From positions 1 through 64,000 of the forward strand of contig JARUPY010000126.1 of assembly GCA_029817715.1 (NCBI GenBank): a stretch of DNA of 64,000 nucleotides, given 5' to 3'. Position 1 is the stretch's first letter, and every line of letters begins with the position of its first letter. A program made the translations under genes and the position numbers. The notes beneath the pieces were generated by a model that had not been told where the DNA came from, did no database searches, and worked only from the letters and a program-made list of their open reading frames with translations. The stretch is from Melastoma dodecandrum. Its lineage: Eukaryota > Streptophyta > Magnoliopsida > Myrtales > Melastomataceae. Below, piece by piece: positions 4,262-37,181 of the stretch.

Positions 4262-4489
4262 CTTTATTACATACGTTCCTACAGCTAATGCAGCAACTCT
4301 AGCTCAATTCGCCACTCGTAGGTCCATCTCGCCCTTGGACAGTCATCTGCAGTCACTTAGACCCTGCAAGTCCGCACAAATGTGAGAACTACTTCCGGAG
4401 TCTATAACCCATGACGAAGAAACAGAAAGATTGCATTCAATCACAAAGATACATGAAGCATCTACTCCACTGGTATTCTTCTTCATGAT

Positions 4490-5178: not shown

Positions 5179-5179
5179 A

Positions 5180-6714: not shown

Positions 6715-6726
6715 GCTCTGATGTCA
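6715..6726 (-). other. Copia primer-binding site
   Basis: On the minus strand, two bases inside the 5' LTR, the sequence reads TGACATCAGAGC. This is a near match to the initiator-tRNA-Met complement TGGTATCAGAGC used by most plant copia elements (two mismatches). Confidence 0.85.
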
Positions 6727-6728
6727 AT

Positions 6729-8254
6729 TGTTAGTTTTAGGGCGTAGTAGAAGATAAAAAAATTATATTTTAGCCCAAATAAACTCATAGTACGTATAAT
6801 ATAATTGAGAAAAACTATAAAATAACCTTACCCGGAAATTGTACCTCGACTATAGCGGTATCCAAGCGCACGCAATCACGAACACTTGACGATCCGGTAG
6901 GTGCTAGCCTCTTGGATCCGTCTGGTCTCAAAACCGGAAGCTCACACAAACCTCCTCTTTTGTTTTGCCAAGCAAAAAACTCTCTGGGATTTTCAATCTC
7001 ACTAGGTTTTCTATCGTTCTTTCTTTTTAAACTTTCAGAATAGACAATCTGACCACTTGATTGCCTATTTACTTTCCATTTCAATCAGGTCATTAACCAA
7101 AATAAACTTCATAGGAAACTTAATTTGTTTCCAAAATGCACCGTATAAGAATAAAAATATTGAATAAATTTAATCAAATATTAATTTACTCAAATAAAAT
7201 ATCAAGTACTTATTTCATACCCTTTATCTAATAGAAAAGAACCGAATAAATCCATATTCGATCTTCGTCTATTTATTTGCTTCCGATATTTTAGAATAAA
7301 TTAATAATCCAATTAATTCTAATTTTGAAATAAAATGATTAATTTTAGTATCCACTAAAATAACCAAAATATAATATTCGTGTCGACGTGCTATGCGTGA
7401 AACTCTCTAGGTCATATAGACGACGGCAGTGTATATCCATACAAAAACTAAGGTAGCTGTCTAGCAACAGTTTTTAGTCACCCAACGTGTTAGGATAATG
7501 ATCATAAATCATAAACCACTATGAACCGATTATTGTGTAATTCAATCTCTTCATCTATCCGACATTTCAATTAATTCGGCGCAAAATACATAATCACTAA
7601 ATTAATTTTTGTTTTACTTGATTACCAAGATATAATAGACTCTCTTGAATGTAAAACATTGCTCCCATGGCCATGGATTTTAGAGTCAATAATATCTTTA
7701 TCAAGTGGCCTAGATGTCAACTCTCTAATCCAAGAAAGCGATGAATCCTATATTGACTCAACACTATTCTCTCTACGCTTTGTCACACACCCAACAATCG
7801 TATTGCTCACAATCCGGTTAAAGACTGCTTTTAACGACGTCAAAGTGTGCAAACTCCACGCATAGAATAAATGAAGGTCTCAAGTCAAAAGATCAGTTAC
7901 ACTCGTCCATAAAGAAGATTGACCAATGATGTTCAATATGTGGTATCCTCTTAATCAGGTCGTGTCCAGTAACCCTAATCTCAGGGTACACCTAAGTATA
8001 ACTTAGATATACAATCCCTCGGTCTATCTTGACCTTAGTTATACTCAACGATGATCTAGATGTCCATGTCCCGTCTAAACATCTATCCGACCACGGACTG
8101 TTTCATATTAATATACTCATTAATCTGTGGGATCTTATCATTAATAATTTTACGTGCAGAAAAGTAAAATAATCAATGATAAATACGCGCCTTTATTAAT
8201 TATTTATCCACAAATACAATATAGTGTCTTGACACATAAGTGCACACTCTAACA
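6729..8254 (-). repeat. Copia 5' LTR
   Basis: This 1526-bp LTR starts TGTTAG, ends CTAACA and is followed by the CAGTG target duplication at 8255-8259. It would have supplied the promoter of the element. Confidence 0.93.
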
Positions 8255-9144
8255 CAGTGGTCCTACTCTTTTTAATATATTTGGAGAAGATTTATTTATT
8301 GATGATTAAATCCTTTTGATCCTTCAATTTAGATATGAGAAATCCAATGGGGACTCGAGCATTGCAACTTCAACATACCCAGCCCGTTATAGGAGCATGC
8401 AAACTAGTCCATCTGAAAAGATTGAATAGGAGTCAAATGGGAGAAGTATCGAAGGCCTTGGTGTTGTTTCTTACAAGACAAGAGGGGGATGTATAACTAG
8501 TAACTTGCCTGATCTCTCAAATTCCATTAGTCGAATTGAAAGGTGAGGCGAGACCAGCTCAGTGCTTTGTGGTTGTTTCAGTCATTCTGTTTCATGTCCA
8601 CGGCACATTATCTATGTATTATATGGCTGCAGATGGTGTGCTTCCTTGGTTATGTCTAGTCCCTATTGTCAATTGTCATGGTCGAATAGATTATGACTTC
8701 CTTCAGGTGGTTACGGCCTTCTTTCTGACGTACTTTTTAGTAAATGTACCAGTGAAAAATATCTTAGTCATCTTCAAATAGCGCCAAACGAAAATGTTGC
8801 GACTGTAGCTGAGGCCGAAGATTCAGTCTCAGAACTCCCTCCAAGAGCTTTCAAGTCTTCTCGTATTTTTCTAAGACATCTGACTCTATTGTTCAATGAT
8901 CATGGGGTAATGGTACACTATGTTCATCCCCTAATCCGGCCTTCCATTAATGTCACAGCAAGTGGTGAGGATCTTGTGGAGAAAGGGAAGCTGCCTGTTG
9001 TATAACAAAAAGGACGTTTCAAAGTGACCTCCGAGAATGTTGACCTTCATAAAGTGCTCGGCAAATCTTTTCTGTAGTTTGCTGTTGGTGGCTGCATAAA
9101 TTGATTGCTGGCAGTTTTTTCGCTTTCAAGTTTCTCCATCATCC

Positions 9145-9464
9145 ATACCTTCGACCACACTCCGTCCACCATGCCCCAGCGTCCAGATTCCACCGACCAA
9201 GTTCGCAAGTCTACAGTGCCCAACAGCAAGTCTACGGCGCCACCACCATCCAAGTTCGCGAGTCTACAGCGCCCAGTAGCAAGTCTACGACGTTGCACCA
9301 TCGTCTTTACTTTATTTTTCATGGCTGTAAGCTTTTCACTCTTATTGTAAGACTTCGTTTGATCAGTTCAATTCATTTCTTTTTACTTACTTGCGACCAC
9401 ATCTGAAACCCTGTGAGTACTGTTGCCAAATATTTCCAACGTGATCCGTTTCGACGTGAAAACA
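9145..9464 (+). repeat. Truncated 5' LTR of the gag-only element
   Basis: It matches 10884-11203 of the right LTR and ends in AACA just before the TGGCGACC motif. Its first ~510 bp are absent, so the promoter part of the upstream LTR is lost. Confidence 0.9.
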
Positions 9465-9468
9465 TTTT

Positions 9469-9485
9469 TGGCGACCACAGTGGAA
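9469..9485 (+). other. Primer-binding-like site of the gag-only element
   Basis: Four bases after the left LTR the sequence reads TTGGCGACCACAGTGG. Plant gypsy-type and related non-autonomous elements carry TGGCG-type primer sites at this place. I cannot assign the tRNA. Confidence 0.6.
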
Positions 9486-9510
9486 TGATGAGAAAGATTA
9501 AAGCCCACAG

Positions 9511-9918
9511 ATGGCGAAGAATACCAGGAGTGGGGTTAATCGCGACCCTCCACCTCCATTAGATGGAGACGGTCAGTTGATAGCAGGAGACGCAAATGTG
9601 GAGACCGCGACTCTAGGAAGCCAAGAAACAACAACTCAACTCGATCCCGGGGCACATACCCCTTCTGAGTTCATATCTAGGCTTGAGTTCCATAAAGAAT
9701 TCAATGATATGAGGAACCTGATGGACAGACGTATCACTGGGTTGCAAGATAATATAACTCAGATACCGGAGCAACTTAGCGCTTTAAATAGGCCAAACGC
9801 CGCTGCAAAGCCAAACGTCCCCGTAGACAGGGAGAATTCTTTTATGGGAGATGCCCGACGCACAGAGAGGCGCAATGTGACATTCCAAGAGGATGAACCC
9901 TGGAACGGCGCTAATTAA
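9511..9918 (+). CDS. Gag-like N-terminal fragment (135 aa)
   Basis: The start at 9511 gives MAKNTRSGVNRDP, the kind of basic opening seen in Gag of plant gypsy (Tat/Ogre-like) elements. A short helical segment follows (residues 52-80, EFISRLEFHKEFNDMRNLMDRR without the first residues) and then a polar tail. A stop comes before any capsid core or zinc knuckle. It lies about 40 bp after the primer-binding site, the normal place for gag. It is either a truncated gag or a peptide kept by a gag-only (TR-GAG-like) element. The family call rests on position and composition and is moderate. Confidence 0.6.
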   Translation: MAKNTRSGVNRDPPPPLDGDGQLIAGDANVETATLGSQETTTQLDPGAHTPSEFISRLEFHKEFNDMRNLMDRRITGLQDNITQIPEQLSALNRPNAAAKPNVPVDRENSFMGDARRTERRNVTFQEDEPWNGAN

Positions 9919-17396: not shown

Positions 17397-17401
17397 TGAC
17401 C
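17397..17401. repeat. Target-site duplication, left (TGACC)
   Basis: TGACC directly precedes the first LTR base and is repeated at 37177-37181 right after the last LTR. Confidence 0.9.
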
Positions 17402-20400
17402 TGTACGCGCGCGGCGGTTCGGACGACCCGAGGATCCGGGCCCGCTCCCCTAGAGTCTTCCGGTCGGCGTCGCGACTCGAGCATCGAACGCTTCGGAAAA
17501 GACCAGGGTGGTCCCTACTTCGATTCCTGATCGGGTCTGCCCAGACTCTTCGCCGATCGTCTCCATGCTCCTTAAGAGGCGACGGGCGAAAAGAAGCGCA
17601 TGGCCCGAGGAGGAAGCTTCAGGAGGTTCCAAGAGCGGCTCGTGTCGTCAGTCCCTCATCCAAGATGACTTCGTAAAAAAATGTGTTGTTGTTTAACCTA
17701 GGTAAACTATTACGGAGTCGCCACCGACTTATTTAAAAGCTTGGTTTAAGTCGGAAAACCAGCCTAGATTCGGGGTTCCTAATTACTAACTCTTACATCT
17801 AAACATGCGAAGAGATGGCGTTTGCTCCAAAAGTTTACTTTTGGTTAACGGGCGTTGGACCCGATTCAGGCTTTTTGGGCCCGAACTCATGTTTATTTGT
17901 TTTACAAACCGCATGCGACGATAAACCTATGGGCCTAAAGCATACGGACATGCACAGACAATTATTGAGATCAAAGGGAGCGGGGAAGGGGCGGTGATTG
18001 CGGGCCTATGCACTTGGGTCCGCAATCCGTTACAAGTGGATTGAATAAAAATTCAAGGAGGCCCGCACCTCCTCCCCTTTGTACCTTAGATTGAAGGTTG
18101 GGGTCGCTTTGTCTTCGAGCCCGCGGTTTTTAGGCCGGGGTGGATCCCGTGGTTTGATACACGCGCCTTCGAGTTAATCTTCGAAATTTTGATGTTGGTT
18201 TTCCGAGATTAAGTGCTCGATGTACATGTCAAAGAAAATGTAAACGTGCTTAGTATTGTTGAATAAAATTCAATCAATTAAAAGGAATGTAAGGCATGTC
18301 TTACTATTCTAATTTTTAATAAAAAATCATTTTAGTGTCGATCTTTCATATATGTTGTCAAAAAAAATAAAACTTTACGAATAATTAACAATTTTACCTA
18401 AAAAAAGAAGTTGTTACATAAAACTTGAAATCTCAAATTTTAAAAGAACATATACGTAACACAGTCGAACAATGATCAATCAAACAAAATACATGCGTAG
18501 TCAAATGGCGATTAAAATGGGTAAAGGGGCGATCATTCATTCGTAGTAATCTCAAGTTATCGTCACTATCCTAAATGCTAACGTCAACCTAATACAAATC
18601 ACAGAAATTGAACGGCACGATTAAATCTCCAAGGCAAAAGTCAAAATCGAAGGAAACTTTTACCTCTCACACGAGCTGCATAGGAATTGTCGCGGGGGAG
18701 ATCTTGGAAACCACGGGGAGCTTCTGCTCGGAATGGGGACGAGAAGGAGGCCACTTTGAAGTCGCCCGCTACCGATTCCACGAACCCAGGGCACGCTCAG
18801 GAAGATGGATCTGCCATCACGGTCGAATCCAAATAAGCCCGTCGCCGGAGGAGCTGCTGGTTCATCGCCGGCTGCTGAGGATCTGTAGAAGCCACGGTTA
18901 GGGGGACGCGGGTTGCCGCCGCCGTGGGATGTCAGGGACGTCGGGAGGAGATGGAGCCACCACTTTGGTTGGATCTGAGGCGATTGCTGCTGGAGGGCCG
19001 TCAGGGACGAGCTGCCACCGTTGGGAGGCGCCGGAGGGGAGAATGGCCGTGCTAGGAGAACGCCGGGGTCGGAAGAGGGAGGTCTCGTTGCCCAAGCCGA
19101 GGAAGGTTGTAGAGAAACCGGCCGGAGCTGCGGGCTACTCGTTGCCGGGCTGGATGTTGCCGAAGGAGACGTAGATCCACCACTTCCATGTCTGGGGAGG
19201 CCACCGGAGAGCGCGAATCGCCGGCGGGCTGCCGTCGTGAGTCTTGGAAATGCCGGAGAAGAAGTGGGTCGCCACCACTGGAGGAGGGTCGAGGAAGCCG
19301 GACATGGTGGCATTGTAGGGGATGGTTGCTGTACGTGGATGAATCCGAGGCGGGATGATTGCCAGGATGGACTGTGGAGGAGCATTCGACGGGGCTGCAG
19401 CGAGGTTGTTGGAGAAAGGGGAGTGCCGGAGAAGGGGACCTGCTAGGTTGGGGAACGTCGGAGGAGAGGGGACCACCGCTGCAGGCTTGCTGCTGGTCTT
19501 TAGAGGAGCTGGGGGGGATGGCAGGGGAGGTTGATCCGTCGTCATGGGAGGTGCCGTGGAGAGGCTGATGCCGAGGGAGCAGTTGTGGGTCGCCGGGAAG
19601 GTTGTGATCCCCGCTGCGGCTGGTGGCGGCGGCATTGGGAATGGATGTCCATCACCGCCACTGATTGAAAGGACGTTGGAAGGAGCATGGGTTAGCCGTC
19701 TTCTCTGGGAGCACCACCTTTCAAAGGTTAGTGGAGACCTGGCGTTGGTGAGCCTGATCTGGGACGTCGGGGAAGACGGCATGCGGACGTTGAGGAGAGG
19801 CAGGGGAGACAGGAATTGAGGGATATGCTCTCGCTGCGGCTACAAGCGTCGGGAAGAAATGGGTTTGCCGCGGCTGGGCGTCCAGGGGTATGCGAAAGGG
19901 CAGCTCTTTGGGAGTGTTTGGCCACTAGTTGTCGAGGGATGCGGTCATTTGTCATTGCTGTCAGTTCAGAACAGGGGAGACCAGTGAGACTAGTTCGTTG
20001 GTACCGGCTTTTGGGGAGATCGGAGAAGGTTGTCGAGAGCGTCGTTGGGAACAAAGGAGATGGGAGGAGGCTTTGGCTTTATGTGAGATTAGGCTGATTG
20101 CTGAGTGTTTAAGGTTAAGTGGGGAACGCGACCGTGAGGCTGAAAAGAGAGAGAATCTTGGGAAGGGTTGGCTTTGGAAAGTTGGCTTTGGGAGAACGTG
20201 GGAATACATGAACAAAGGAAAGAAAGGGGGGAAGCTGTTGTTGTTTGGAGAATGAACGCAACCGTGGCGAGGCCATCATCTCCATGGCGTGTTCCTGCAC
20301 GTAAAAGGAAACAAATCAAAGCACAAGGAGGGCTTCCCGGGACGAGACTGATGTTGTCCATGTCGCATCCAGGAAGGCCGAAGTCTGTCGCCGCTTGAGG

Positions 20401-20760
20401 TATGACTCTCCGCTGTTATTGTGGACTGTTTGCTTGGGTTGTCGAGGGGGTTCCCATTAACGTTTTCTTCCTCTTACCTTGGTGAGGAGATTGTAGGAGA
20501 TGACGCTCGTCCAAAGGTCAAGGCTGTGAGGATCCCCCTTTTCATTGTCTTTTTGTGTGTGTCTTCTATCTAGGGAAGTAGAATATAACGTTTGCAAGTA
20601 GAAACGTTTAAAGGGAGAAACGTTTCAATCTATCTCTGCAACTGTAATGTGTGTATGTGCTTCCATTTAGGAAGGGAAATTTAGTGAATGCAAGGAATCA
20701 AAAGAAATATTCTTGAAAATAGGAAAGGTAATTTCTAGCCTAGATATTTGAGGTATTACA
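17402..20760 (-). repeat. LARD LTR1 (3' LTR of the array)
   Basis: 3359 bp. It alone keeps a 268-bp segment (18408-18675) missing from LTR2 and LTR3. It lacks about 21 bp just inside its plus-strand start and about 79 bp that LTR3 has at 35999-36077. The GC-rich half (18680-20100) has few stops in all frames, which explains long apparent frames there. Its TATA position reads TATCTAG instead of TATATAG. Confidence 0.93.
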
Positions 20761-20785
20761 GTTTGCCCCTTCTTGTGGGGGAATC
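20761..20785 (-). other. Polypurine tract of LARD unit 1
   Basis: The minus strand reads CACAAGAAGGGGCAAAC directly before the LTR start TGTAATACC. Confidence 0.8.
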
Positions 20786-22159
20786 TGGAAAGATTTTCTC
20801 ACAAGGATATTAGGAATACCTCAAATTATGTTTTGAAAACATCTTTGTTCAGCATGCACCTAAAAAGCTTATCAAGAAAACTCAATAGTCACAACGAAAA
20901 CAAAAACAAGAACAGCTAAATGTACATGCACATTATACTTCGTTTTGTTTTCTTTTTAAGAGTATGTTTCCCAGCGAGAGCAGAAAAGGTTTGTCGATTT
21001 CTCTCGTGTTTCACTCTCACTTCTGAAAGCCGCTTCAGTTGGATTTCGGAATTCCTTTGACTTGGATGCTCATGTACCAATCGAAGGAGTCTTTGTTGGG
21101 GTTATAATGTGGCTTCGACATAAGGCCTTTAGACTGAAAGTTTGAATTCGTCATCTGAAAGAAAAAGTTTACGGACCTCATCGAAAGCTACTGGATCGTA
21201 GAGGTTCCACCATTCAAGCAAATTTTCCATCCATTAGACAGGTCACCAGTTGACATGTTCTGTTGGGGGATGAATAAATGGTTTACTGGCAGGTGTGATC
21301 AATCCACTTCGGGAAAAGCTTTGTTTTAGAAGGGTAGCATCTTTGCTTTTGTGACCGTCAATGTCAGTCCCGATGCTTTGTTTTTGCTCTTTTGATTTTC
21401 ATCTTGCGCTTTGCTTTTTCTTTACTGGATCATAGGGATTTGCCCCACTTTGTTTTCTGGTACTTTTCTTTGGTATCTGTGCTCTTTGGGAAATTCTTTG
21501 AGAAATTTGATCTTCAGGAATGACTCAACTGGTAGGCCTAATTGTCGATGATGTATCTTTGCCTGAATCTTAAGGAAGTATAGCCTCTACGATCCGTTGC
21601 TTCCGGTTTCTAGCTACAAGATCTCCCTTTTTAACCTCGATGTGAGGCGGTCCTTAGACTTGTTAGGTGTAGTGTATATGAAAACTTCAACTTTGGCTCG
21701 AAAGGGGCTAGTAATAGTTGATGTTCCGTGTTTGGGATAGAGAAGAAGTGCTCGATCTCATTCCGGTTTAGAGCAACTTTTGTCAAAGGACTCGTCATCC
21801 GCCTGAATGCTTGTGTATGAATTTTTATAGTGTTTGCACTCATCACTCTGGGTAAGTGTTTGGGGATAGGCTTGCCTTCTCCACTCTCGTTCAGAAACAT
21901 TTTTATTAAAGATAATTTCAAATTATATGCAAATGAGCACACAAATGCTTAAGAAAATAAACAGGTTTAGGTATTCAAACCTCGGTGGTGCTCTTGTCCA
22001 AACTTCGAGGGGGAAAGTGTTTGCACTTTCATGCCCCAGTCATGTTCTTTTGAGATTAGAATCAAACAGCTTCCACCCGACCACCCACGCCGTTGCCTAG
22101 GAGTTTGTACCGTACTGTGTGGATGTCCATGTACCTACACAGTTGATAACAGACAAAGA

Positions 22160-23743
22160 CGAAGTTAGTTCATGTACTTCGACTCTTGTTTGGGGAGATA
22201 ACAATGAAATGAAGTATCCGCTGGGGAGATGAGGTGGATATGTCCGTCTCAATGATAGTTCTGGAGGAATATGCTTGTATGTTCGATCCTTGTTGAGGAA
22301 TGCGATGCATGTAATCAACTCTAGCTTGAACGAAGGCAGGACTCCAGCTGGGGAAACGGAGATACGACTCCATCTTTGGTGATGACAAAGGCAATTTCGA
22401 AGCTTTGATTCGAAATTTTCCACCCAACCGCCCGCGCCTATGTCTTTAATGTAGGATGCTCATGTACTTACACTAGGCAAAGGACAGACAACAAGTGAGC
22501 TCATGTAACTTGTTTCTTTTAAAGTAAGAATGAAGTTTGCTCATGTAACTTCATTTATATGAAAAGTGAAGTAGAGTTTGGATACTTCCCTCTTGTATGA
22601 TCTCGTCATTGCGTCTTCGTCTGATGGAGTACAAGGTTTGACGAAATTGCTTTCGCTTGGCGTCTGTTGTGTAAGGAAGTTCATGTACCTATTAAAAGAT
22701 GACGAGAAACAAGTGAGTTCATGCGACTTGTTTCTGTTAGTGTATGAATGAAGTTTATTCATGTAACTTCATTTGTAATGAAGGTGAAGTAGAGTTTTGG
22801 TACTTCCTTTTTGTATGATCTCGTCATTGCATCTTCGTCGAATGGAATCGAATGATTGACGAAATTGCAACAAGACTTTCGCTTGAAGCTTTGCCGCCCT
22901 ACCACCCTCGCCTTTGCCACAGGAGTTTTGTACCATTCGTGTGAGGAGCTCTTGTACCTGCCCACGAGACAAAGGACGTTAATGAAATGAGCTCATGTAA
23001 TTTCACTTAGCTCGATGAAGAGAGTAATATTTGTATGATTCTCCCTTTTCATGTTTATTGTCAGTGTTCTTTGCCCACTTGACTCCCTAGGGATATAAAG
23101 AAGTTTGCTGACGAAGATTGTTCTGAAGCTTTGGTTTGAAACTTCATCGTTTGTCTTTGTTGTCTGCCAAGGGCGTACATGTACCCCTTTCACGTAATTT
23201 GTGGTGTTGTTGATGACATATCGCTCCGAATCTTTGGTTTGAAATTTATTGATTGTCTGTCTAGGATGTTCATGTACTTCCAAGATTGCTCTGTCTTGTC
23301 CCTGGATAGCTTGGAGGTATGCCCCAGGATTGTTCAAGATCTGTCCCATGATCGCTTAGAGATTTCCCCATGGATCACATGGAGATTTGCCCCGGATTGT
23401 TCACGCAGTGTCTTCTTCGTTGTTTTGCCAATGAAGGCTGTTTTGAAACTTTGGCTCGAAACTTTTCAACCCTACCACCCTCACCTTCGTCGTCTGTCTA
23501 GGATGTTCATGTACCTATAAGACAAACCGAAGAGCAAAACAGGTAAGTTCATGTAACCTGTTTTGCGAAGAAAGCATTTGTTAAGAAATGAATACTCCCT
23601 CTTCATGTAGATCATTGTTTTGTTGACAGAGCATTCTCCAAGATTGCTCGGAGTTGCCCCAATATTGCTTGTCTGTTTAGGATGCTCCTGTACCTATGAG
23701 ACGAATGCATGGTGAAAATAAGTAAGCTCATGTAACTTATTTT
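22160..23743 (-). repeat. Array of eight hairpins with variable stems and constant loop (copy 1)
   Basis: Eight short inverted repeats enclose a near-constant 10-11-base loop ending TCATGTA (plus strand). Positions and 5' stem arms are: 22160-22181 CGAAGT; 22490-22514 AACAAGT; 22529-22555 AATGAAGT; 22705-22735 AGAAACAAGT; 22747-22773 AATGAAGT; 22983-23005 TGAAAT; 23534-23566 GCAAAACAGGT; 23715-23743 AAAATAAGT. Each 3' arm is the exact complement. Stem bases change between copies with matching changes on the other side. The hairpins sit in a longer diverged repeat unit that also has a GGATGYTCATGTAC motif. Confidence 0.9.
22393..22417. repeat. Additional hairpin in LARD internal region
   Basis: AATTTCGAA and TTCGAAATT form a 9-bp stem around the loop GCTTTGA. 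It lies between hairpins 1 and 2 of the array and has a different loop. Confidence 0.8.
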
Positions 23744-25791
23744 TGCAGAGAAGCACTATTCAGGAACCAATACTCCCTTTTATGTGATTTCAATGTCTAA
23801 GAGCGTCTACGTCAATTGTTTATGACGGTTCTCTCCGATAAGATGATTGACTCCGATTGAATGTCCCGGATGTGCAAAGTTGGTAGCTCTTTGTGGTGCG
23901 CGTGGGCGATGACCGCAACTGTGGTGGGCGGGCTAGGGAATTGGCCGCTCATGTGGTGGACCGGGGTGCTTGTTTCTCGTCAATGCGTGAGGCGGTGACT
24001 GACCTTCTCCTCTTTCCTTTGATGAGACAAGGTGGTTGACTACTGTCGGGATGACCGCTTGGGTGCCGTAAGGAATTCAAAGGGAATTGCCCCAGTCGAA
24101 GTATGCGTCGTCGTTTGGTAGACATCATGTTCTTTGGTATTTTGTAAGTTGTTGTGTGAGCCCCAGACGAGACATCATATACCTGCGAGGTAAAAATGAA
24201 TGTCTTGGTGTTAGATGTTTAAATATCGATAAGTTCATCATGTATGTTTTGAACTGTTGGAAGGCGAATAGTGCGAATGGGAGTTTCTAATGCCAGCCGC
24301 GCTATGTGTTCGCCGTCTCTTGAAGAATCTCGTCCATGTTCTTGTTTTTATCGTCGGGATACTGTGGATCCGACATTCGTCAAGTTCTTGTCGTCGGAGA
24401 AACGATGTGGTTGAATGAAGTGTTCATATTTGGGGTTTGATTGCTCGCAGCTGTCCTGATCTCGCGGTGCCGTTGTGAATGATGGGGTTTGCCCCTTGTG
24501 CTGGATTATGTTATTGAGTTGTAAGCTGGGGAATTGCCCCTGTTTGGATTGATGTTTCCGTTGGTGCCGAGGTTGTGGCGACTGATGACGTAGTGAGATT
24601 GCATCTGTTTCTTTGGAGCGGTTGTCGGATCAGTAGGGGCGTGATGTTCCCAGTGTGTCCGATTGTAGCATGTCCGTGAATGGCTCTATGGGCTTGTCAT
24701 TAGCTCTGATGTTGACTGTGGTTGGCTGATGAGATGTAACCTCCTTGGGGTTTTCATGTTGTTGTAGATTCGACTTTGAACTTTGGTAGCCATTGGGTGA
24801 TATTTGGTGTTCGTGCTCAGATGTTCGACTTCAGGCCTTGGTACCCGTCAATGGATCTCGTGTTGTTGCATGTCTGGCCATAACTTTGGTCTTTGATAGC
24901 GACCAGGAAATCCTTGGTCTGAATTGTTGTTCATCTGGTTTTGGACTTTGACAGTCGTCGAGCACCTTTGGCCTGCATGTTGTTGAATGCTTTGGTAGCC
25001 GTCGAGTAATCCCTGGTGTTCTTGTGCTTGTAGATTTGTAATGTCATGTTTTGTCCCTAGTCCCGTTCGAGGAGCCATGTTGGAGAATTAAACTTCGGAA
25101 GGAAAATAGAGAGAATGCAATAATGTAATCGATGCATGATAAGTTTTGTTGTTGCTTAATCGCACTCATATATGTGTATGCATTTACAAATGAAATGCAA
25201 TAATGTCATGAAACAATTATTGTAAATGATTTGTTAATTTGAAAACTGTAATTAGACAGACACTCATGTGGTTGCCCAAATGTATGATATGCAATTGGCG
25301 GTAACATTAGGTAGGGTAATAAGACAAAAGAGGCTTCTTGAAGCCCATTGTAATAAGCTCGAACTAACTGCAAAACGAGCATTGTTAGTTTTACAGTTAT
25401 AGCAGACAAAGCGTACCTGACACCTGTCCCTGCACAAGTAGCAGTCACTCAGTAACAGACAAATGCACGTGCGGCGTCTGGTACCTGTAGTGGGCAATCA
25501 ATGCTAGACTCTCGGATGAAGGTTTCTAAACCTCCCTTGGACTAAGGGAGGCGGGGCCCCGGCCAAAAACCATACTGCAAATAGCAACAGGCTGAGCCCT
25601 TCGGTGACCCCTCTAAAAATCCTAGCCCCGGGTTCGGGCACACCTGGATATGTCTAGGAAAGCAGTAAACAAACATAACCATGAGAGCATACAAAGGGCA
25701 CCGAGCCAAGCAATTACACACGCAAACAAGAACTCCTCTCCGCATGTGGATTAAAAATGTAAGAGCGTTCGAAAAGAATCCACATGCAGTT

Positions 25792-25809
25792 TCCCCAGCG
25801 GAGTCGCCA
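25792..25809 (-). other. LARD primer-binding site, unit 1
   Basis: The minus strand reads TGGCGACTCCGCTGGGGA a few bases after the LTR end. This TGGCGACTCCG-type site is common in plant gypsy-related and LARD elements. Confidence 0.82.
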
Positions 25810-25816
25810 TCCGGGA

Positions 25817-28800
25817 TGTACGCGCGCCTTCCGGCCTAGCACGCGTGCGGCGGTTTGGACGACCCGAGGATCCGGGCCCGCTCCCCTAGAGACTTCCGGT
25901 CGGAGTCGCGACTCGAGCGTCGAACGCTTCGGAAAAGACCAGGGTGGTCCCTCCTTCGATTCCTGACCGGGTCTGCCCAGACTCTTCGCCGATCGTCTCC
26001 ATGCTCCTTAAGAGGCGACGGGCGAAAAGAAGCGCATGGCCCGAGGAGGAAGCTTCAGGAGGTTCCAAGAGCGGCTCGTGTCGTCAGTCCCTCATCCAAG
26101 ATGACTTCGTAAAAAAATGTGTTGTTGTTTAACCTAGGTAAACTATTACGGAGTCGCCACCGACTTATTTAAAAGCTTGGTTTAAGTCGGAAAACCAGAC
26201 TAGATTCGGGGTTCCTAATTACTAACTCTTACATCTAAACATGCGAAGAGATGGCGTTTGCTCCAAAAGTTTGCTTTTGGTTAACGGGCGTTGGACCCGA
26301 TTCAGGCTTTTTGGGCCCGAACTCATGTTTATTTGTTTTACAAACCGCATGCGACGATAAACCTATGGGCCTAAAGCATACGGACATGCACAGACAATTA
26401 TTGAGATCAAATGGAGCGGGGAAGGGGCGGTGATTGCGGGCCTATGCACTTGGGCCCGCAATCCGTTACAAGTGGATTGAATAAAAATTCAAGGAGGCCT
26501 GCACCTCCTCCCCTTTGTACCTTAGATTGAAGGTTGGGGTCGCTTTGTCTTCGAGCCCGTGGTTTTTAGGCCGGGGTGGATCCCGTGGTTTGATACACGC
26601 GCCTTCGAGTTAATCTTCGAAATTTTGATGTTGGTTTTCCGAGATTAAGTGCTCGATGTACATGTCAAAGAAAATGTAAACGTGCTTATTATTGTTGAAT
26701 AAAATTCAATCAATTAAAAGGAATGTAAGGCATGTCTTACTATTCTAATTTTTAATAAAAAATCATTTTAGTGTCGATCTTTCATATATGTTGTCAAAAA
26801 AAATAAAACTTTACGAATAATTAACAATTTTACCTAAAAAAAGCTGCATAGGAATTGTCGCGGGGGAGATCTTGGAAACCACGGGGAGCTTCTGCTCGGA
26901 ATGGGGACGAGAAGGAGGCCACTTTGAAGTCGCCCGCTACCGATTCCACGAACCCAGGGCACGCTCAGGAAGATGGATCTGCCATCACGGTCGAATCCAA
27001 ATAAGCCCGTCGCCGGAGGAGCTGCTGGTTCATCGCCGGCTGCTGAGGATCTGTAGAAGCCACGGTTAGGGGGACGCGGGTTGCCGCCGCCGTGGGATGT
27101 CAGGGACGTCGGGAGGAGATGGAGCCACCACTTTGGTTGGATCTGAGGCGATTGCTGCTGGAGGGCCGTCAGGGACGAGCTGCCACCGTTGGGAGGCGCC
27201 GGAGGGGAGAATGGCCGTGCTAGGAGAACGCCGGGGTCGGAAGAGGGAGGTCTCGTTGCCCAAGCCGAGGAAGGTTGTAGAGAAACCGGCCGGAGCTGCG
27301 GGCTACTCGTTGCCGGGCTGGATGTTGCCGAAGGAGACGTAGATCCACCACTTCCATGTCTGGGGAGGCCACCGGAGAGCGCGAATCGCCGGCGGGCTGC
27401 CGTCGTGAGTCTTGGAAATGCCGGAGAAGAAGTGGGTCGCCACCACTGGAGGAGGGTCGAGGAAGCCGGACATGGTGGCATTGTAGGGGATGGTTGCTGT
27501 ACGTGGATGAATCCGAGGCGGGATGATTGCCAGGATGGACTGTGGAGGAGCATTCGACGGGGCTGCAGCGAGGTTGTTGGAGAAAGGGGAGTGCCGGAGA
27601 AGGGGACCTGCTAGGTTGGGGAACGTCGGAGGAGAGGGGACCACCGCTGCAGGCTTGCTGCTGGTCTTTAGAGGAGCTGGGGGGGATGGCAGGGGAGGTT
27701 GATCCGTCGTCATGGGAGGTGCCGTGGAGAGGCTGATGCCGAGGGAGCAGTTGTGGGTCGCCGGGAAGGTTGTGATCCCCGCTGCGGCTGGTGGCGGCGG
27801 CATTGGGAATGGATGTCCATCACCGCCACTGATTGAAAGGACGTTGGAAGGAGCATGGGTTAGCCGTCTTCTCTGGGAGCACCACCTTTCAAAGGTTAGT
27901 GGAGACCTGGCGTTGGTGAGCCTGATCTGGGACGTCAGGGAAGACGGCATGCGGACGTTGAGGAGAGGCAGGGGAGACAGGAATTGAGGGATATGCTCTC
28001 GCTGCGGCTACAAGCGTCGGGAAGAAATGGGTTTGCCGCGGCTGGGCGTCCAGGGGTATGCGAAAGGGCAGCTCTTTGGGAGTGTTTGGCCACTAGTTGT
28101 CGAGGGATGCGGTCATTTGTCATTGCTGTCAGTTCAGAACAGGGGAGACCAGTGAGACTAGTTCGTTGGTACCGGCTTTTGGGGAGATCGGAGAAGGTTG
28201 TCGAGAGCGTCGTTGGGAACAAAGGAGATGGGAGGAGGCTTTGGCTTTATGTGAGATTAGGCTGATTGCTGAGTGTTTAAGGTTAAGTGGGGAACGCGAC
28301 CGTGAGGCTGAAAAGAGAGAGAATCTTGGGAAGGGTTGGCTTTGGAAAGTTGGCTTTGGGAGAACGTGGGAATACATGAACAAAGGAAAGAAAGGGGGGA
28401 AGCTGTTGTTGTTTGGAGAATGAACGCAACCGTGGCGAGGCCATCATCTCCATGGCGTGTTCCTGCACGTAAAAGGAAACAAATCAAAGCACAAGGAGGG
28501 CTTCCCGGGACGAGACTGATGTTGTCCATGTCGCATCCAGGAAGGCCGAAGTCTGTCGCCGCTTGAGGTATGACTCCCCGCTGTTGTTGTTGACTGTTTG
28601 CTTGGGTTGTCGAGGAGGTTCCCGTTGACGTCTTCTTCCTCTTACCTTGGTGAGGAGATTGTAGGAGATGACGATCGTCCAAAGGTCAAGGCTGTGAGGA
28701 TCCCCCTTTTCGTTGTCTTTTTGTGTGTGTCTTCTATATAGGGAAGTAGAATATAACGTTTGCAAGTAGAAACGTTTAAAGGGAGAAGCGTTTCAATCTA

Positions 28801-28928
28801 TCTCTGCAACTGTAATGTGTGTATGTGCTTCCATTTAGGAAGGGAAATTTAGTGAATGCATGGAATCAAAAGAAATATTCTTGAAAATAGGAAAGGTAAT
28901 TTCTAGCCTAGATATTTGAGGTATTACA
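25817..28928 (-). repeat. LARD LTR2 (shared middle LTR, mosaic)
   Basis: 3112 bp. Its left part matches LTR3 (keeps the ~21-bp start segment, lacks the 268-bp segment). The middle (to about 28560) matches LTR1, lacking the 79-bp segment. Around 28565-28800 it matches LTR3 again, including the TATATAG box. The last ~100 bp agree with LTR1. It serves as the 5' LTR of unit 1 and the 3' LTR of unit 2. Confidence 0.92.
28734..28741 (-). promoter_or_regulatory. TATA-like box in LARD LTR2
   Basis: CTATATAG lies about 190 bp from the LTR start in the sense (minus) direction. LTR3 has the same box at 36982-36989; LTR1 has CTATCTAG at about 20566-20573. Confidence 0.5.
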
Positions 28929-30327
28929 GTTTGCCCCTTCTTGTGGGGGAATCTGGAAAGATTTTCTCACAAGGATATTAGGAATTCCTCAAATTATGTT
29001 TCGAAAACATCTTTGTTCAGCATGCACCTAAAAAGCTTATCAAGTAAACTCAATAGTTACAACGAAAACAAAAACAAGAACAGCTAAATGTACATGCACA
29101 TTATGCTTCGTTTTGTTTTCTTTTTAAGAGTATGTTTCCCAGCGAGAGCAGAAAAGGTTTGTCGATTTCTCTCGTGTTTCACTCTCACTTCTGAAAGCCG
29201 CTTCAGTTGGATTTCGGAATTCCTTTGACTTGGATGCTCATGTACCAATCGAATGAGTCTTTGTTGGGGTTATAATGTGGCTTCGACATAAGGCCTTTAG
29301 ACTGAAAGTTTGAATTCGTCATCTGAAAGAAAAAGTTTAAGGACCTCATCGAAAGCTACTGGATCGTAGAGGTTCCACCATTCAAGCAAATTTTCCATCC
29401 ATTAGACAGGTCACCAGTTGACATGTTCTGTTGGGGGATGAATAAATGGTTTACTGGCAGGTGTGATCAATCCACTTCGGGAAAAGCTTTGTTTTAGAAG
29501 GGTAGCATCTTTGCTTTTGCGACCGTCAATGTCAGTCCCGATGCTTTGTTTTTGCTCTTTTGATTTTCATCTTGCGCTTTGCTTTTTCTTTACTGGATCA
29601 TAGGGATTTGCCCCACTCTGTTTTCTGGTACTTTTCTTTGGTATCTGTGTTCTTTGGGAAATTCTTTGAGAAATTTGATCTTCAGGAACGACTCAACTGG
29701 TAGGCCTAATTGTCGATGATGTATCTTTGCCTGAATCTTAAGGAAGTATAGCCTCTACGATCCGTTGCTTCCGGTTTTTAGCTACAAGATCTCCCTTTTT
29801 AACCTCGATGTGAGGCGGTCCTTAGACTTGTTAGGTGTAGTGTATATGAAAACTTCAACTTTGGCTCGAAAGGGGCTAGTAATAGTTGATGTTCCGTGTT
29901 TGGGATAGAGAAGAAGTGCTCGATCTCATTCCGGTTTAGAGCAACTTTTGTCAAAGGACTCGTCATCCGCCTGAATGCTTGTGTATGAATTTTTATAGTG
30001 TTTGCACTCATCACTCTGGGTAAGTGTTTGGGGATAGGCTTGCCTTCTCCACTCTCGTTCAGAAACATTTTTATTAAAGATAATTTCAAATTATATGCAA
30101 ATGAGCACACAAATGCTTAAGAAAATAAACAGGTTTAGGTATTCAAACCACGGTGGTGCTCTTGTCCAAACTTCGAGGGGGAAAGTGTTTGCACTTTCAT
30201 GCCCCAGTCATGTTCTTTTGAGATTAGAATCAAACAGCTTCCACCCGACCACCCACGCCGTTGCCTAGGAGTTTGTACCGTACTGTGTGGATGTCCATGT
30301 GCCTACACAGTTGATAACGGACAAAGA

Positions 30328-31914
30328 CGAAGTTAGTTCATGTACTTCGACTCTTGTTTGGGGAGATAACAATGAAATGAAGTATCCGCTGGGGAGATGA
30401 GGTGGATATGTCCGTCTCAATGATAGTTCTGGAGGAATATGCTTGTATGTTCGATCCTTGTTGAGGAATGCGATGCATGTAATCAACTCTAGCTTGAACG
30501 AAGGCAGGACTCCAGCTGAGGAAACGGAGATACGACTCCATCTTTGGTGATGACAAAGGCAATTTCGAAGCTTTGATTCGAAATTTTCCACCCAACCGCC
30601 CGCGCCTATGTCTTTAATGTAGGATGCTCATGTACTTACACTAGGCAAAGGACAGACAACAAGTGAGCTCATGTAACTTGTTTCTTTTAAAGTAAGAATG
30701 AAGTTTGCTCATGTAACTTCATTTATATGAAAAGTGAAGTAGAGTTTGGATACTTCCCTCTTGTATGATCTCGTCATTGCGTCTTCGTCTGATGGAGTAC
30801 AAGGTTTGACGAAATTGCTTTCGCTTGGCGTCTGTTGTGTAAGGAAGTTCATGTACCTATTAAAAGATGACGAGAAACAAGTGAGTTCATGCGACTTGTT
30901 TCTGTTAGTGTATGAATGAAGTTTATTCATGTAACTTCATTTGTAATGAAGGTGAAGTAGAGTTTTGGTACTTCCTTTTTGTATGATCTCGTCATTGCAT
31001 CTTCGTCGAATGGAATCGAAGGATTGACAAAATTGCAACAAGACTTTCGCTTGAAGCTTTGCCGCCCTACCACCCTCGCCTTTGCCATAGGAGTTTTGTA
31101 CCATTCGTGTGAGGAGCTCTTGTACCTGCCCACGAGACAAAGGACGTAAATGAAATGAGCTCATGTAATTTCACTTAGCTCGATGAAGAGAGTAATATTT
31201 GTATGATTCTCCCTTTTCATGTTTATTGTCAGTGTTCTTTGCCCACTTGACTCCCTAGGGATATAAAGAAGTTTGCTGACGAAGATTGTTCTGAAGCTTT
31301 GGTTTGAAACTTCATCGTTTGTCTTTGTTGTCTGCCAAGGGCGTTCATGTACCCCTTTCACGTAATTTGTGGTGTTGTTGATGACATATCGCTCTGAATC
31401 TTTGGTTTGAAATTTATTGATTGTCTGTCTAGGATGTTCATGTACTTCCAAGATTGCTCTGTCTTGTCCCTGGATAGCTTGGAGGTATGCCCCAGGATTG
31501 TTCAAGATCTGTCCCATGATCGCTTAGAGATTTCCCCATGGATCACATGGAGATTTGCCCCGGATTGTTCACGCAGTGTCTTCTTCGTTGTTTTGCCAAT
31601 GAAGGCTGTTTTGAAACTTTGGCTCGAAACTTTTCAACCCTACCACCCTCACCTTCGTCGTCTGTCTAGGATGTTCATGTACCTATAAGACAAACCGAAG
31701 GGCAAAACAGGTAAGTTCATGTAACCTGTTTTGCGAAGAAAGCATTTGTTAAGAAATGAATACTCCCTCTTCATGTAGATCATTGTTTTGTTGACAGAGC
31801 ATTCTCCAAGATTGCTCGGAGTTGCCCCAATATTGCTTGTCTGTTTAAGATGCTCCTCCTGTACCTATGAGACGAATGCATGGTGAAAATAAGTAAGCTC
31901 ATGTAACTTATTTT
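30328..31914 (-). repeat. Array of eight hairpins with variable stems and constant loop (copy 2)
   Basis: The same eight hairpins as in copy 1 are shifted by +8168 (the first seven) or +8171 (the eighth, at 31886-31914). All stems are intact. This is a recent duplicate, so it is not independent evidence for conservation. Confidence 0.9.
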
Positions 31915-33961
31915 TGCAAAGAAGCACTATTCAGGAACCAATACTCCCTTTTATGTGATTTCAATGTCTAAGAGCGTCTACGTCAATTGTTTATGACGGT
32001 TCTCTCCGATAAGATGATTGACTCCGATTGAATGTCTCGGATATGCAAAGTTGGTAGCTCTTTGTGGTGCGCGTGGGCGATGACCGCAACTGTGGTGGGC
32101 GGGCTAGGGAATTGGCCACTCATGTGGTGGACCGGGGTGCTTGTTTCTCGTCAATGCGTGAGGCGGTGACTGACCTTCTCCTCTTTTCTTTGATGAGACA
32201 AGGTGGTTGACTACTGTCGGGATGACCGCTTGGGTGCCGTAAGGAATTCAAAGGGAACTACCCCAGTCGAAGTATGCGTCGTCGTTTGGTAGACATCATG
32301 TTCTTTGGTATTTTGTAAGCAGTTGTGTGAGCCCCAGACGAGACATCATATACCTGCGAGGTAAAAATGAATGTCTTGGTGTTAGATGTTTAAATATCGA
32401 TAAGTTCATCATGTATGTTTTGAACTGTTGGAAGGCGAATAGTGCGAATGGGAGTTTCTAATGCCAGCCGCGCTATGTGTTCGCCGTCGCTTGAAGAATC
32501 TCGTCCATGTTCTTGTTTTTATCGTCGGGATACTGTGGATCCGACATTCGTCAAGTTCTTGTCGTCGGAGAAACGATGAGGTTGAATGAAGTGTTCATAT
32601 TTGGGGTTTGATTGCTCGCAGCTGTCCTGATCTCGCGGTGCCGTTGTGAATGATGGGGTTTGCCCCTTGTGCTGGATTATGTTATTGAGTTGTAAGCTGG
32701 GGAATTGCCCCTGTTTGGATTGATGTTTCCGTTGGTGCCGAGGTTGTGGCGACTGATGACGTAGTGAGATTGCATCTGTTTCTTTGGAGCGGTTGTCGGA
32801 TCAGTAGGGGCGTGATGTTCCCAGTGTGTCCGATTGTAGCATGTCCGTGAATGGCTCTATGGGCTTATCATTAGCTCTGATGTTGACTGTGGTTGGCTGA
32901 TGAGATGTAACCTCCTTGGGGTTTTCATGTTGTTGTAGATTCGACTTTGAACTTTGGTAGCCATTGGGTGATATTTGGTGTTCGTGCTCAGATGTTCTAC
33001 TTCAGGCCTTGGTACCCGTCAATGGATCTCGTGTTGTTGCATGTCTGGCCATAACTTTGGTCTTTGATAGCGACCAGGAAATCCTTGGTCTGAATTGTTG
33101 TTCATCTGGTTTTGGACTTTGACAGTCGTCGAGCACCTTTGGCCTGCATGTTGTTGAATGCTTTGGTAGCCGTCGAGTAATCCCTGGTGTTCTTGTGCTT
33201 GTAGTTTGTAATGTCATGTTTTGTCCCTAGTCCCGTTCGAGGAGCCATGTTGGAGAATTAAACTTCGGAAGGAAAATAGAGAGAATGCAATAACGTAATC
33301 GATGCATGATAAGTTTTGTTGTTGCTTAATCGCACTCATATATGTGTATGCATTTACAAATGAAATGCAATAATGTCATGAAACAATTATTGTAAATGAT
33401 TTGTTAATTTGAAAACTGTAATTAGACAGACACTCATGTGGTTGCCCAAATGTATGATATGCAATTGGCGGTAACATTAGGTAGGGTAATAAGAAAAAAG
33501 AGGCTTCTTGAAGCCCATTGTAATAAGCTCGACCCAACTGCAAAACGAGCATTGTTAGTTTTACAGTTATAGCAGACAAAGCGTACCTGACACCTGTCCC
33601 TGCACAAGTAGCAGTCTCTCAGTAACAGACAAATGCACGTGCGGCGTCTGATACCTGTAGTGGGCAATCAATGCTAGACTCTCGGATGAAGGTTTCTAAA
33701 CCTCCCTTGGACTAAGGGAGGCGGGGCCCCGGCCAAAAACCATACTGCAAATAGCAGCAGGCTGAGCCCTTCGGTGACCCCTCTAAAAATCCTAGCCCCG
33801 GGTTCGGGCACACCTGGATATGCCTAGGAAAGCAGTAAACAAACATAACCATGAAAGCATACAAAGGGCACCGAGCCAAGCAATTACACACGCAAACAAG
33901 AACTCCTCTCCGCATGTGGATTAAAAATGTAAGAGCGTTCGAAAAGAATCCACATGCAGTT

Positions 33962-33979
33962 TCCCCAGCGGAGTCGCCA
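33962..33979 (-). other. LARD primer-binding site, unit 2
   Basis: The minus strand again reads TGGCGACTCCGCTGGGGA directly inside LTR3. Confidence 0.82.
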
Positions 33980-33986
33980 TCCGGGA

Positions 33987-36900
33987 TGTACGCGCGCCTT
34001 CCGGCCTAGCACGCGTGCGGCGGTTTGGACGACCCGAGGATCCGGGCCCGCTCCCCTAGAGACTTCCGGTCGGAGTCGCGACTCGAGCGTCGAACGCTTC
34101 GGAAAAGACCAGGGTGGTCCCTCCTTCGATTCCTGACCGGGTTTGCCCAGACTCTTCGCCGATCGTCTCCATGCTCCTTAAGAGGCGACGGGCGAAAAGA
34201 AGCGCATGGCCCGAGGAGGAAGCTTCAGGAGGTTCCAAGAGCGGCTCGTGTCGTCAGTCCCTCATCCAAGATGACTTCGTAAAAAAATGTGTTGTTGTTT
34301 AACCTAGGTAAACTATTACGGAGTCGCCACCGACTTATTTAAAAGCTTGGTTTAAGTCGGAAAACCAGACTAGATTCGGGGTTCCTAATTACTAACTCTT
34401 ACATCTAAACATGCGAAGAGATGGCGTTTGCTCCAAAAGTTTGCTTTTGGTTAACGGGCGTTGGACCCGATTCAGGCTTTTTGGGCCCGAACTCATGTTT
34501 ATTTGTTTTACAAACCGCATGCGACGATAAACCTATGGGCCTAAAGCATACGGACATGCACAGACAATTATTGAGATCAAATGGAGCGGGGAAGGGGCGG
34601 TGATTGCGGGCCTATGCACTTGGGCCCGCAATCCGTTACAAGTGGATTGAATAAAAATTCAAGGAGGCCTGCACCTCCTCCCCTTTGTACCTTAGATTGA
34701 AGGTTGGGGTCGCTTTGTCTTCGAGCCCGTGGTTTTTAGGCCGGGGTGGATCCCGTGGTTTGATACACGCGCCTTCGAGTTAATCTTCGAAATTTTGATG
34801 TTGGTTTTCCGAGATTAAGTGCTCGATGTACATGTCAAAGAAAATGTAAACGTGCTTATTATTGTTGAATAAAATTCAATCAATTAAAAGGAATGTAAGG
34901 CATGTCTTACTATTCTAATTTTTAATAAAAAATCATTTTAGTGTCGATCTTTCATATATGTTGTCAAAAAAAAATAAAACTTTACGAATAATTAACAATT
35001 TTACCTAAAAAAAGCTGCATAGGAATTGTCGCGGGGGAGATCTTGGAAACCACGGGGAGCTTCTGCTCGGAATGGGGACGAGAAGGAGGCCACTTTGAAG
35101 TCGCCCGCTACCGATTCCACGAACCCAGGGCACGCTCAGGAAGATGGATCTGCCATCACGGTCGAATCCAAATAAGCCCGTCGCCGGAGGAGCTGCTGGT
35201 TCATCGCCGGCTGCTGAGGATCTGTAGAAGCCACGGTTAGGGGGACGCGGGTTGCCGCCGCCGTGGGATGTCAGGGACGTCGGGAGGAGATGGAGCCACC
35301 ACTTTGGTTGGATCTGAGGCGATTGCTGCTGGAGGGCCGTCAGGGACGAGCTGCCACCGTTGGGAGGCGCCGGAGGGGAGAATGGCCGTGCTAGGAGAAC
35401 GCCGGGGTCGGAAGAGGGAGGTCTCGTTGCCCAAGCCGAGGAAGGTTGTAGAGAAACCGGCCGGAGCTGCGGGCTACTCGTTGCCGGGCTGGATGTTGCC
35501 GAAGGAGACGTAGATCCACCACTTCCATGTCTGGGGAGGCCACCGGAGAGCGCGAATCGCCGGCGGGCTGCCGTCGTGAGTCTTGGAAATGCCGGAGAAG
35601 AAGTGGGTCGCCACCACTGGAGGAGGGTCGAGGAAGCCGGACATGGTGGCGTTGTAGGGGATGGTTGCTGTACGTGGATGAATCCGAGGCGGGATGATTG
35701 CCAGGATGGACTGTGGAGGAGGATTCGACGGGGCTGCAGCGAGGTTGTTGGAGAAAGGGGAGTGCCGGAGAAGGGGACCTGCTAGGTTGGGGAACGTCGG
35801 AGGAGAGGGGACCACCGCTGCAGGCTTGCTGCTGGTCTTTAGAGGAGCTGGGGGGGATGGCAGGGGAGGTTGATCCGTCGTCATGGGAGGTGCCGTGGAG
35901 AGGCTGATGCCGAGGGAGCAGTTGTGGGTCGCCGGGAAGGTTGTGATCCCCGCTGCGGCTGGTGGCGGCGGCATTGGGAATGGATGTCCATCACCGCCGG
36001 CTTTGGAAGACGTCCCGGAGAACTGTGGCCTGTCACGGGTGCGGTCAGGGGCATCAAGAGGATGGAGATCCGTTGCCACTGATGGAAAGGACGTTGGAAG
36101 GAGCATGGGTTAGCCGTCTTCTCTGGGAGCACCACCTTTCAAAGGTTAGTGGAGACCCGGCGTTGGTGAGCCTGATCTGGGATGTCGGGGAAGACGGCAT
36201 GAGGACGTTGAGGAGAGGCTGGGGAGACAGGAATTGAGGGATATGCTCTCGCTGCGGCTGCAAGCGTCGGGAAGAAATGGGTTTGCCGCGGCTGGGCGTC
36301 CAGGGGTATGCGAAAGGGCAGCTCTTTGGGAGTGTTTGGCCACCGGTTGTCGAGGGATGCGGTCATTTGTCATTGCTGTCAGTTCAGAACAGGGGAGACC
36401 AGTGAGACTAGTTCATTGGTACCGGCTTTTGGGGAGATCGGAGAAGGTTATCGAGAGCGTCGTTGGGAACAAAGGAGATGGGAGGAGGCTTTGGCTTTAT
36501 GCGAGATTAGGCTGATTGCTGAGTGTTTAAGGTTAAGTGGGGAACGCGACTGTGAGGCTGAAAAGAGAGAGAATCTTAGGAAGAGTTGGCTTTGGAAAGC
36601 TAGCTTTTGGGAACGTGGGAATACATGAACAAAGGAGAGAAAAGGGGGAAGCTGTTGTTGTTTGGAGAATGAACGCAACCATGGCGAGGCCACCGTCTCC
36701 ATGGCGTGTTCCTGCACGTAAAAAGAAACAAATCAAAGCACAAGGAGGGCTTCCCGGGACGAGACTGATGTTGTACGTGTCGCATCCAGGAGGGCCGAAG
36801 TCTGTCGCCCTTGAGGTATGACTCCCCGCTGTTGTTGTGGACTGTTTGCTTGGGTTGTCGAGGAGGTTCCCGTTGACGTCTTCTTCCTCTTACCTTGGTG

Positions 36901-37176
36901 AGGAGATTGCAGGAGATGACGATCGTCCAAAGGTCAAGGCTGTGAGGATCCCCCTTTTCGTTGTCTCTTTGTGTGTGTCTTCTATATAGGGAAGTAGAAT
37001 ATAACGTTTGCAAGTTGAAACGTTTAAAGGGAGAAGCGTTTCAATCTATCTCTGCAACTGTAACGTGTGTATGTGCTTCCATTTAGAAAGGGAAATTTAG
37101 TGAATGCAAGGAATCAAAAGAAATATTCTTGAAAATAGGAAAGATAATTTTTAGCCTAGATATTTGAGGTATTACA
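33987..37176 (-). repeat. LARD LTR3 (5' LTR of the array)
   Basis: 3190 bp. It lacks the 268-bp segment of LTR1 but has a 79-bp segment (35999-36077) absent from LTR1 and LTR2, bounded by GCC on both sides. It carries the intact TATATAG box. In the element's orientation it is the outer 5' LTR and so the likely promoter for a full-length transcript. Confidence 0.92.
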
Positions 37177-37181
37177 TGACC
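37177..37181. repeat. Target-site duplication, right (TGACC)
   Basis: TGACC directly follows the ATTACA end of LTR3 and matches 17397-17401. Confidence 0.9.

Follow-up and report, generated by a model that had tools for sequence, protein, structure and literature searches.

A hairpin array with covarying stems and a shared loop in a non-coding LTR retrotransposon of Melastoma dodecandrum and in a pol-bearing relative

How LTR elements without proteins are recognized by a helper, and what role the long post-pol region of Tat elements plays, are open questions, and both are addressed by a locus in the 64,000-nt stretch of Melastoma dodecandrum DNA analyzed here (the window). An initial annotation, made from the sequence alone, had reported eight hairpins in a retrotransposon lacking protein genes, with an almost invariant loop on stems that differ from copy to copy, and had proposed that they are under selection for structure. 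The hairpins lie in an LTR-internal-LTR-internal-LTR tandem (17402-37176) flanked by a single outer 5-bp target-site duplication, TGACC (17397-17401 and 37177-37181). LTR 1 (17402-20760), recognized by its TG...CA ends and by repeats, is in the sense direction the 3′ LTR of internal copy 1 (20761-25816), and repeat comparison places LTR 2 at 25817-28928 and LTR 3 at 33987-37176, on either side of internal copy 2 (28929-33986), which is 99% identical to copy 1; all five segments read on the minus strand, and the LTRs, which end in TG...CA, are 3.1-3.4 kb long. The primer-binding site (PBS; TGGCGACTCCGCTGGGG in the sense direction, 25793-25809, minus strand) lies 7 nt off LTR 2 and shows no change in its 17 columns among 14 copies, and the polypurine-tract (PPT) side (20761-20785, minus strand; sense ...AAGAAGGGGCAAAC) adjoins the LTR at the opposite end. 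The sense strand is thus the minus strand, as the initial annotation had it.

Its claim that protein genes are absent also held, since a Pfam search of the six frames of the 5,056-nt internal region at E ≤ 1 returned no family. With no such match, and with a longest stop-to-stop frame overlapping internal copy 1 of 126 aa, we classify the element as a LARD. Like other LARDs, it combines LTRs, target-site duplication, PBS and PPT with an internal region above 4 kb (5,056 nt) without protein domains or coding capacity, and it belongs to an amplified family, as sequence similarity to all 20 fetched copies of about 8 kb extends over most of the internal region; it differs in that its hairpin array is shared with a pol-bearing relative, described below. 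The original barley LARD paper reportedly described conserved RNA structure. Several features of the surroundings were also noted. Paired array matches at 8-15 kb spacing occur at C133, C601 and C479 as well, and at C13, the cluster of the pol-bearing relative, they are paired likewise, about 12.3 kb apart. In the flanking region of the window, 8255-9145 matches 52810-53700 (95% identical) and 11204-13907 matches 53741-56417 (97%), about 44 kb apart; these stretches are perhaps the LTRs of an older element that hosts the tandem insertion. A GC-rich part of the LTR (18660-19782 and its copies) contains proline-rich sense-strand frames of up to 241 aa that are conserved between LTR copies and are probably not genes. 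A SAGA-Tad1 gene and a protein kinase gene lie nearby in the window.

All eight hairpins were recovered in place, with perfect stems of 6-11 bp, and the loop endings and stem differences that had been reported for them are correct. On the minus strand, these strong hairpins, here called B, span 22160-22181 (stem of 6 bp, loop of 10 nt), 22490-22514 (7 bp, 11 nt), 22529-22555 (8 bp, or 9 with an extra inner pair, 11 nt), 22705-22735 (10 bp, 11 nt), 22747-22773 (8 bp, or 9 with an extra inner pair, 11 nt), 22983-23005 (6 bp, 11 nt), 23534-23566 (11 bp, 11 nt) and 23715-23743 (9 bp, 11 nt). Read on the plus strand, the loop is N4-TCATGTA, 11 nt long, the exceptions being the shorter loop of the first hairpin and TCATGCG in the fourth. 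The count of eight stands for the strong hairpins but not as a total, as the array also holds nine weaker A-type loops that share the 11-nt geometry on shorter, bulged or interrupted stems. These are found, likewise on the minus strand, at 21066-21076 (outer stem bulged), 22123-22133 (core CCATGTA, one bulge in the stem), 22450-22472 (a hairpin with TGTAGG/CCTACA in several copies and the paired variants TGCAGG/CCTGCA and ATAGG/CCTAT elsewhere), 22677-22687 (short stem), 22946-22956 (TCTTGTA, interrupted stem), 23173-23183 (ACATGTA, which reads TCATGTA in copy 2), 23266-23276 (weak stem), and 23499-23517 and 23678-23696 (both hairpins with TAGG/CCTA, the latter with TCCTGTA); four of the nine thus carry single-base variants of the core.

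The closing pairs are ...AAGT/ACTT... or a variant in B hairpins and GG/CC in most A loops. Six of the eight B hairpins are preceded by an A-type loop, whose core lies 38-43 nt before the B core, and the six A-B units align with one another as a diverged tandem repeat; the B hairpins at 22529 and 22747 instead trail another B hairpin by 40 nt. The whole array recurs at 30328-31914 (minus strand) with 99% identity, and because this is the tandem copy of the same element in internal copy 2, it is not independent evidence. Rfam 15 gave nothing at gathering score in 17000-38000, with two sub-threshold matches only. We also observed a third type of hairpin at 22393-22417 (AATTTCGAA-GCTTTGA-TTCGAAATT); diverged units of its sequence (GAAGCTTTGGTTTGAAA) occur again at 23117, 23220 and 23437.

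The eight hairpins are genuine and greatly exceed chance expectation. Perfect stems of at least 8 bp number six in 22001-23800, five of them in the hairpin family, where 0.3 would be expected and none of 40 dinucleotide shuffles gave more than 2, and TCATGTA occurs 38 times in the window against 8.2 expected, counting both strands and both array copies. When arms were exchanged among the 14 exact-core sites of the internal region, paired positions fell from 5.43 to 3.17 of 8, and none of 20,000 permutations reached the observed value; among the B hairpins of the window alone, they fell from 5.38 to 3.86 of 6 (P = 0.0007). For the A loops of the window, ungapped exchange gave no signal (P between 0.33 and 0.69), and exchange with bulges allowed was marginal on the two strands (P = 0.045 and 0.021).

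From the genome to which the window belongs (373 Mb in 607 contigs), we retrieved another 38 copies: 20 are about 8 kb long, with 71-99% identity per block above 150 nt over most of the internal region, and 18 shorter ones (nine of 2.5-3.2 kb and nine of 1.2-2.3 kb) span the array or part of it. Two more, fetched among the 40 matches listed in a search with the leader, are of the same non-coding type and also match the internal region. One leader-found copy, L170, has open frames of up to 235 aa, and L171, which was fetched together with the pol-bearing relative described below, represents another subtype, for which a Pfam search of its three sense frames over 2500-9901 returned nothing. A tree was built from columns outside the hairpins for 29 of 40 sequences, 11 near-identical ones being dropped. 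Depending on the B site, 26, 21, 28, 27, 27, 29, 23 and 13 of the 29 rows were used (in coordinate order), as rows with indels or diverged flanks, or outside the fetched stretch, were left out; events were counted in this gapless, flank-checked set. The core hairpin pattern AAGTNNGYTCATGTAACTT has 1,320 exact matches in the genome and its reversed form none. Scans of viral and prokaryote collections with the hairpin patterns returned 2, 0 and at least 120 matches; the two viral ones are a lone core without an array, and those in prokaryotes were taken as chance.

Covariation among genomic copies, which the initial annotation had suggested examining, took the form of compensatory changes at orthologous sites. 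Changes at partner columns fell on the same branch of the tree nine times in 69 pairs, and all nine led from one pair to another, whereas partners slid by 1-4 columns gave 17 such coincidences in 392 pairs, only two of them pair to pair. Joint-state parsimony identified G-C to A-T at position 2 of site 22541 (6 of 28 copies), A-T to G-C at position 7 of site 22993 (8 of 29) and A-T to G-C at position 4 of site 23728 (4 of 13). In a set of 16 natural B hairpins, hand-chosen from the window and its copies, seven of ten stem columns have changed on both sides, the covariation score is 0.53 (0.19 when shuffled and at most 0.11 when slid), and on four of five measures the set lies above nearly all shuffles; the remaining one, which counts further pair types, is not above them (178 of 500 reach the observed value). 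Such changes bear on the idea that the array arose by duplication of one ancestral repeat unit, without structural selection. The alignment of the A-B units is what duplication would leave, but their stems differ by paired changes that include transversions (G-C, C-G and U-A are all present in column 6 of the chosen set), so that duplication alone is insufficient; this explanation, contradicted by the covariation and by the branch tests below unless template switching supplies every paired change, appears extremely improbable.

Hairpins that have no function could also be made, and kept perfect, by template switching at quasi-palindromes while the element is reverse transcribed or replicated. 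Such switching can create or repair stems and make paired changes (PMC8794818), and six of the nine paired changes lie on terminal branches. It does not, however, lead one to expect a common core in loops of exactly 11 nt, nor hairpins shared with a pol-bearing relative, and the one-sided stem changes via sense G.U intermediates that parsimony suggests at several sites (22719, 22993 and 23549) would run against it. It also does not predict a difference that we observed between branch types, of which the internal reflect the active lineage and the terminal include post-insertion decay. Stem events that keep or restore pairing in the sense RNA make up 17 of 21 on internal branches and 44 of 94 on terminal ones (P = 0.007), and the 138 stem columns underwent 0.167 internal and 0.732 terminal changes per column, compared with 0.454 and 1.070 in 1,011 background columns (P = 0.007), with the reservation that neither pairs from the same site nor sites from the same copy are independent. 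The share of transitions is similar on the two branch types (0.64 and 0.67), so the mutation spectrum does not explain the contrast in pairing. Palindrome-making at the DNA level, which the initial annotation had raised as an alternative, may thus supply paired changes but on its own leaves the internal-terminal contrast unexplained, and we consider it very unlikely as a full account. Selection for structure is what these data support: the stems changed in compensatory fashion along the tree, were conserved on internal branches and decayed on terminal ones. Low internal-branch rates are not confined to the hairpins, as 22000-23000 as a whole has among the lowest of the internal region (0.08-0.14 substitutions per column, where other parts reach 0.43), and 23400-23599 and 24200-24399 are equally low.

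The stems present a loop whose sense consensus is UACAYGARC followed by two more nucleotides (seven B sites, 168 sequences). C3 is kept in 167 of the 168, A4 in 166, A7 in 165, G6 in 159 and C9 in 157; at position 5, 120 sequences have U and 37 have C. Loop size is exact: in 14 non-redundant long copies, the window included, 85 core motifs sit in a loop of exactly 11 nt with at least six of seven Watson-Crick pairs, and other loop sizes gave 0-9, apart from a count of 78 that represents the same stems counted one pair further out. The shuffled-core control gave a mean of 0.7 of 199 motifs, with one value of 71 that is taken to be a permuted motif still matching TCATGTA. "Almost invariant," as the loop had been called, is therefore approximately right for the core, but some sites carry further substitutions, and the loop alone fails the branch test, its nine-base core being below background on both branch types without differing between them (P = 0.44). 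This variation matters for the proposal that the loops are kissing-loop contacts that dimerize genomic RNAs. Dimerization of Ty1 via kissing loops is known (PMC5454406), and the core CAUG, as well as GAGCUC or AGCU in many B loops, is self-complementary; at site 22759, however, CAUG has become CACG in at least 14 of 27 copies, at site 22719 at least 20 of 27 have either CACG or CAAG instead, and the A-loop bases beside CAUG are not palindromic, which leaves this role quite improbable.

The selected molecule might also be single-stranded cDNA or an antisense transcript. When the one copy in the window was folded, the plus strand was weakly favored (mean z difference of -0.84 for the nine A and -0.64 for the eight B hairpins; 11 of 17 point this way), and a loop mini-helix of two pairs (GY-UCAU-GU) is paired in all 14 cells when read on the plus strand, compared with 6 of 14 when read on the minus strand. 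This hint that the plus strand is the structured one lost support once copies were compared, because most wobbles across copies would be G.U pairs of the sense RNA (93 cells; 28 for the antisense). As events, the sense-to-antisense ratio is 7:1 on internal and 28:24 on terminal branches, a difference not significant alone (P = 0.12). The sense RNA is moderately favored as the selected molecule, and we see only a slim chance for the antisense or cDNA alternative.

A related element of autonomous type with the same hairpins, another point raised by the initial annotation, was found at one locus, L172 (cluster G000:C13, together with L173), among pattern matches with a different spacing. A single open frame of 1,194 aa contains, in order, RVT_1 (3e-29), RT_RNaseH, RVT_3 (1e-18), Integrase_H2C2 and rve, and the pol stop is at L172:633. 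In Ogre and Retand elements, a second RNase H (aRH) lies between RNase H and integrase (PMC6317226), and the same arrangement in L172 identifies it as a Tat element of this type. L172 has the same PBS as the window element, a leader that is 81% identical, and six blocks colinear with 20746-22515 of the window (70-81%). Judged by these three similarities, and given that it lacks pol domains of its own, the window element would be a relative of Tat elements. Directly downstream of pol, L172 carries two B hairpins, one at 564-594 with a score of 46.0 bits and the other at 227-257 with 42.0 bits, under a model built from the non-coding family only; two weaker ones score 29.1 and 19.7 bits. At this one locus, two B hairpins have perfect stems of at least 7 bp (9 bp each), compared with a mean of 6.1 per non-coding copy at a similar cut. 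As the hairpins are common to L172 and the non-coding element, they likely predate the divergence of these two elements. Between PBS and pol, at about 4789-4902, L172 also has a sub-threshold G-patch match (21.6 bits; cut-off 22).

That a relative encoding the copying enzymes bears the same hairpins suggests that they are likely a tag through which helper proteins would recognize and copy the RNA of the non-coding element. Selection for many copies of one loop on freely changing stems, shared with an element that can supply proteins, is most simply read as a set of docking sites. We thus tentatively propose, at somewhat less than an even chance, that the array is a repeated docking site in the sense genomic RNA for a protein of a helper element, predicted to be Gag, which is the likely candidate because such a parasite needs capture into particles. 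The non-coding element would have arisen by loss of gag-pol, with retention of the LTRs, the leader with the PBS, and the post-pol array with the PPT. The loop motif UACAYGARC would be the contact and the stem would merely present it, so that stem sequence could drift as long as it stayed paired. Several sites per RNA may allow multivalent capture of the parasite RNA into helper particles, and having more strong sites than the helper, whose number comes from the one pol-bearing locus, would let the parasite compete. More broadly, Tat-lineage elements may bear a post-pol multivalent packaging code of identical loops on free stems, which protein-less parasites amplify and thereby out-compete the helper for Gag; this is possible, but we lean against it. 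Known packaging and dimerization signals of plant retroelements sit in the 5′ leader, and the location of the array in the middle to 3′ half counts against a packaging role. The array could alternatively serve the export, stability or processing of the genomic RNA through binding of a host protein, like the 3′ transport elements of simple retroviruses. Its position downstream of pol in L172, selection on the sense RNA, and the need of a non-coding genomic RNA to be exported too would all fit. No host partner is indicated, however, and retroviral transport elements usually form a single complex fold, not a series of small hairpins that share a loop, which makes this explanation unlikely.

The docking-site reading has parallels and differences in other systems. 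The non-autonomous BARE2 is a copia element, unlike the window element. It resembles the latter as a plant LTR element that uses a relative's Gag: BARE2 is packaged by BARE1, and conserved dimerization and packaging signals are mentioned, with no hairpin array in these passages of the source (PMC3735527). Dispersed packaging signals of single-stranded RNA viruses consist of many stem-loops with a shared recognition motif in variable surroundings (excerpts of PMC6281560), and the array likewise has many stem-loops that share a loop motif on variable stems under selection; the viral signals contact coat protein, whereas here the array is clustered and contact with Gag is only predicted. In LINE/SINE pairs, parasite and helper share a 3′ stem-loop thought to be recognized by the helper protein (excerpts of PMC5135761), a sharing similar to that seen here, in a different class of element, by a different mechanism and with one loop instead of many. 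Post-pol repeat arrays of Tat elements are known, with their function stated as unknown in the part of PMC11963269 concerned and similar arrays described in PMC7004042; passages of a soybean minisatellite paper (PMC3305785) give related background on such repeats. The window array has in common with the post-pol region of Ogre and Retand its position between pol and the 3′ LTR, its richness in repeats and its diverged tandem units, and differs in that its repeats encode covarying hairpins with one loop. In the searched parts of these three papers, no mention of hairpin or secondary structure was found by term search, and among titles and abstract openings in the literature, a search with most subscription papers outside it, none described such an array. 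We therefore provisionally regard a covarying one-loop hairpin array in a post-pol or LARD context as new. One small loop motif, with more than 1,000 occurrences in the genome and statistical marks of RNA selection, is common to the parasite and its likely helper, so that one protein and one 31-nt RNA would be enough to test both questions raised at the outset, and the covariance model is available to seek the same code in other plants. One diverged copy, L155, has an extra hairpin on its reverse strand (about 2385-2415) with the same loop on an unrelated stem (CTCGGT versus ACCGAT, with five inner pairs); its surroundings have no equivalent in the window, and it looks as though the loop had gained a new stem.
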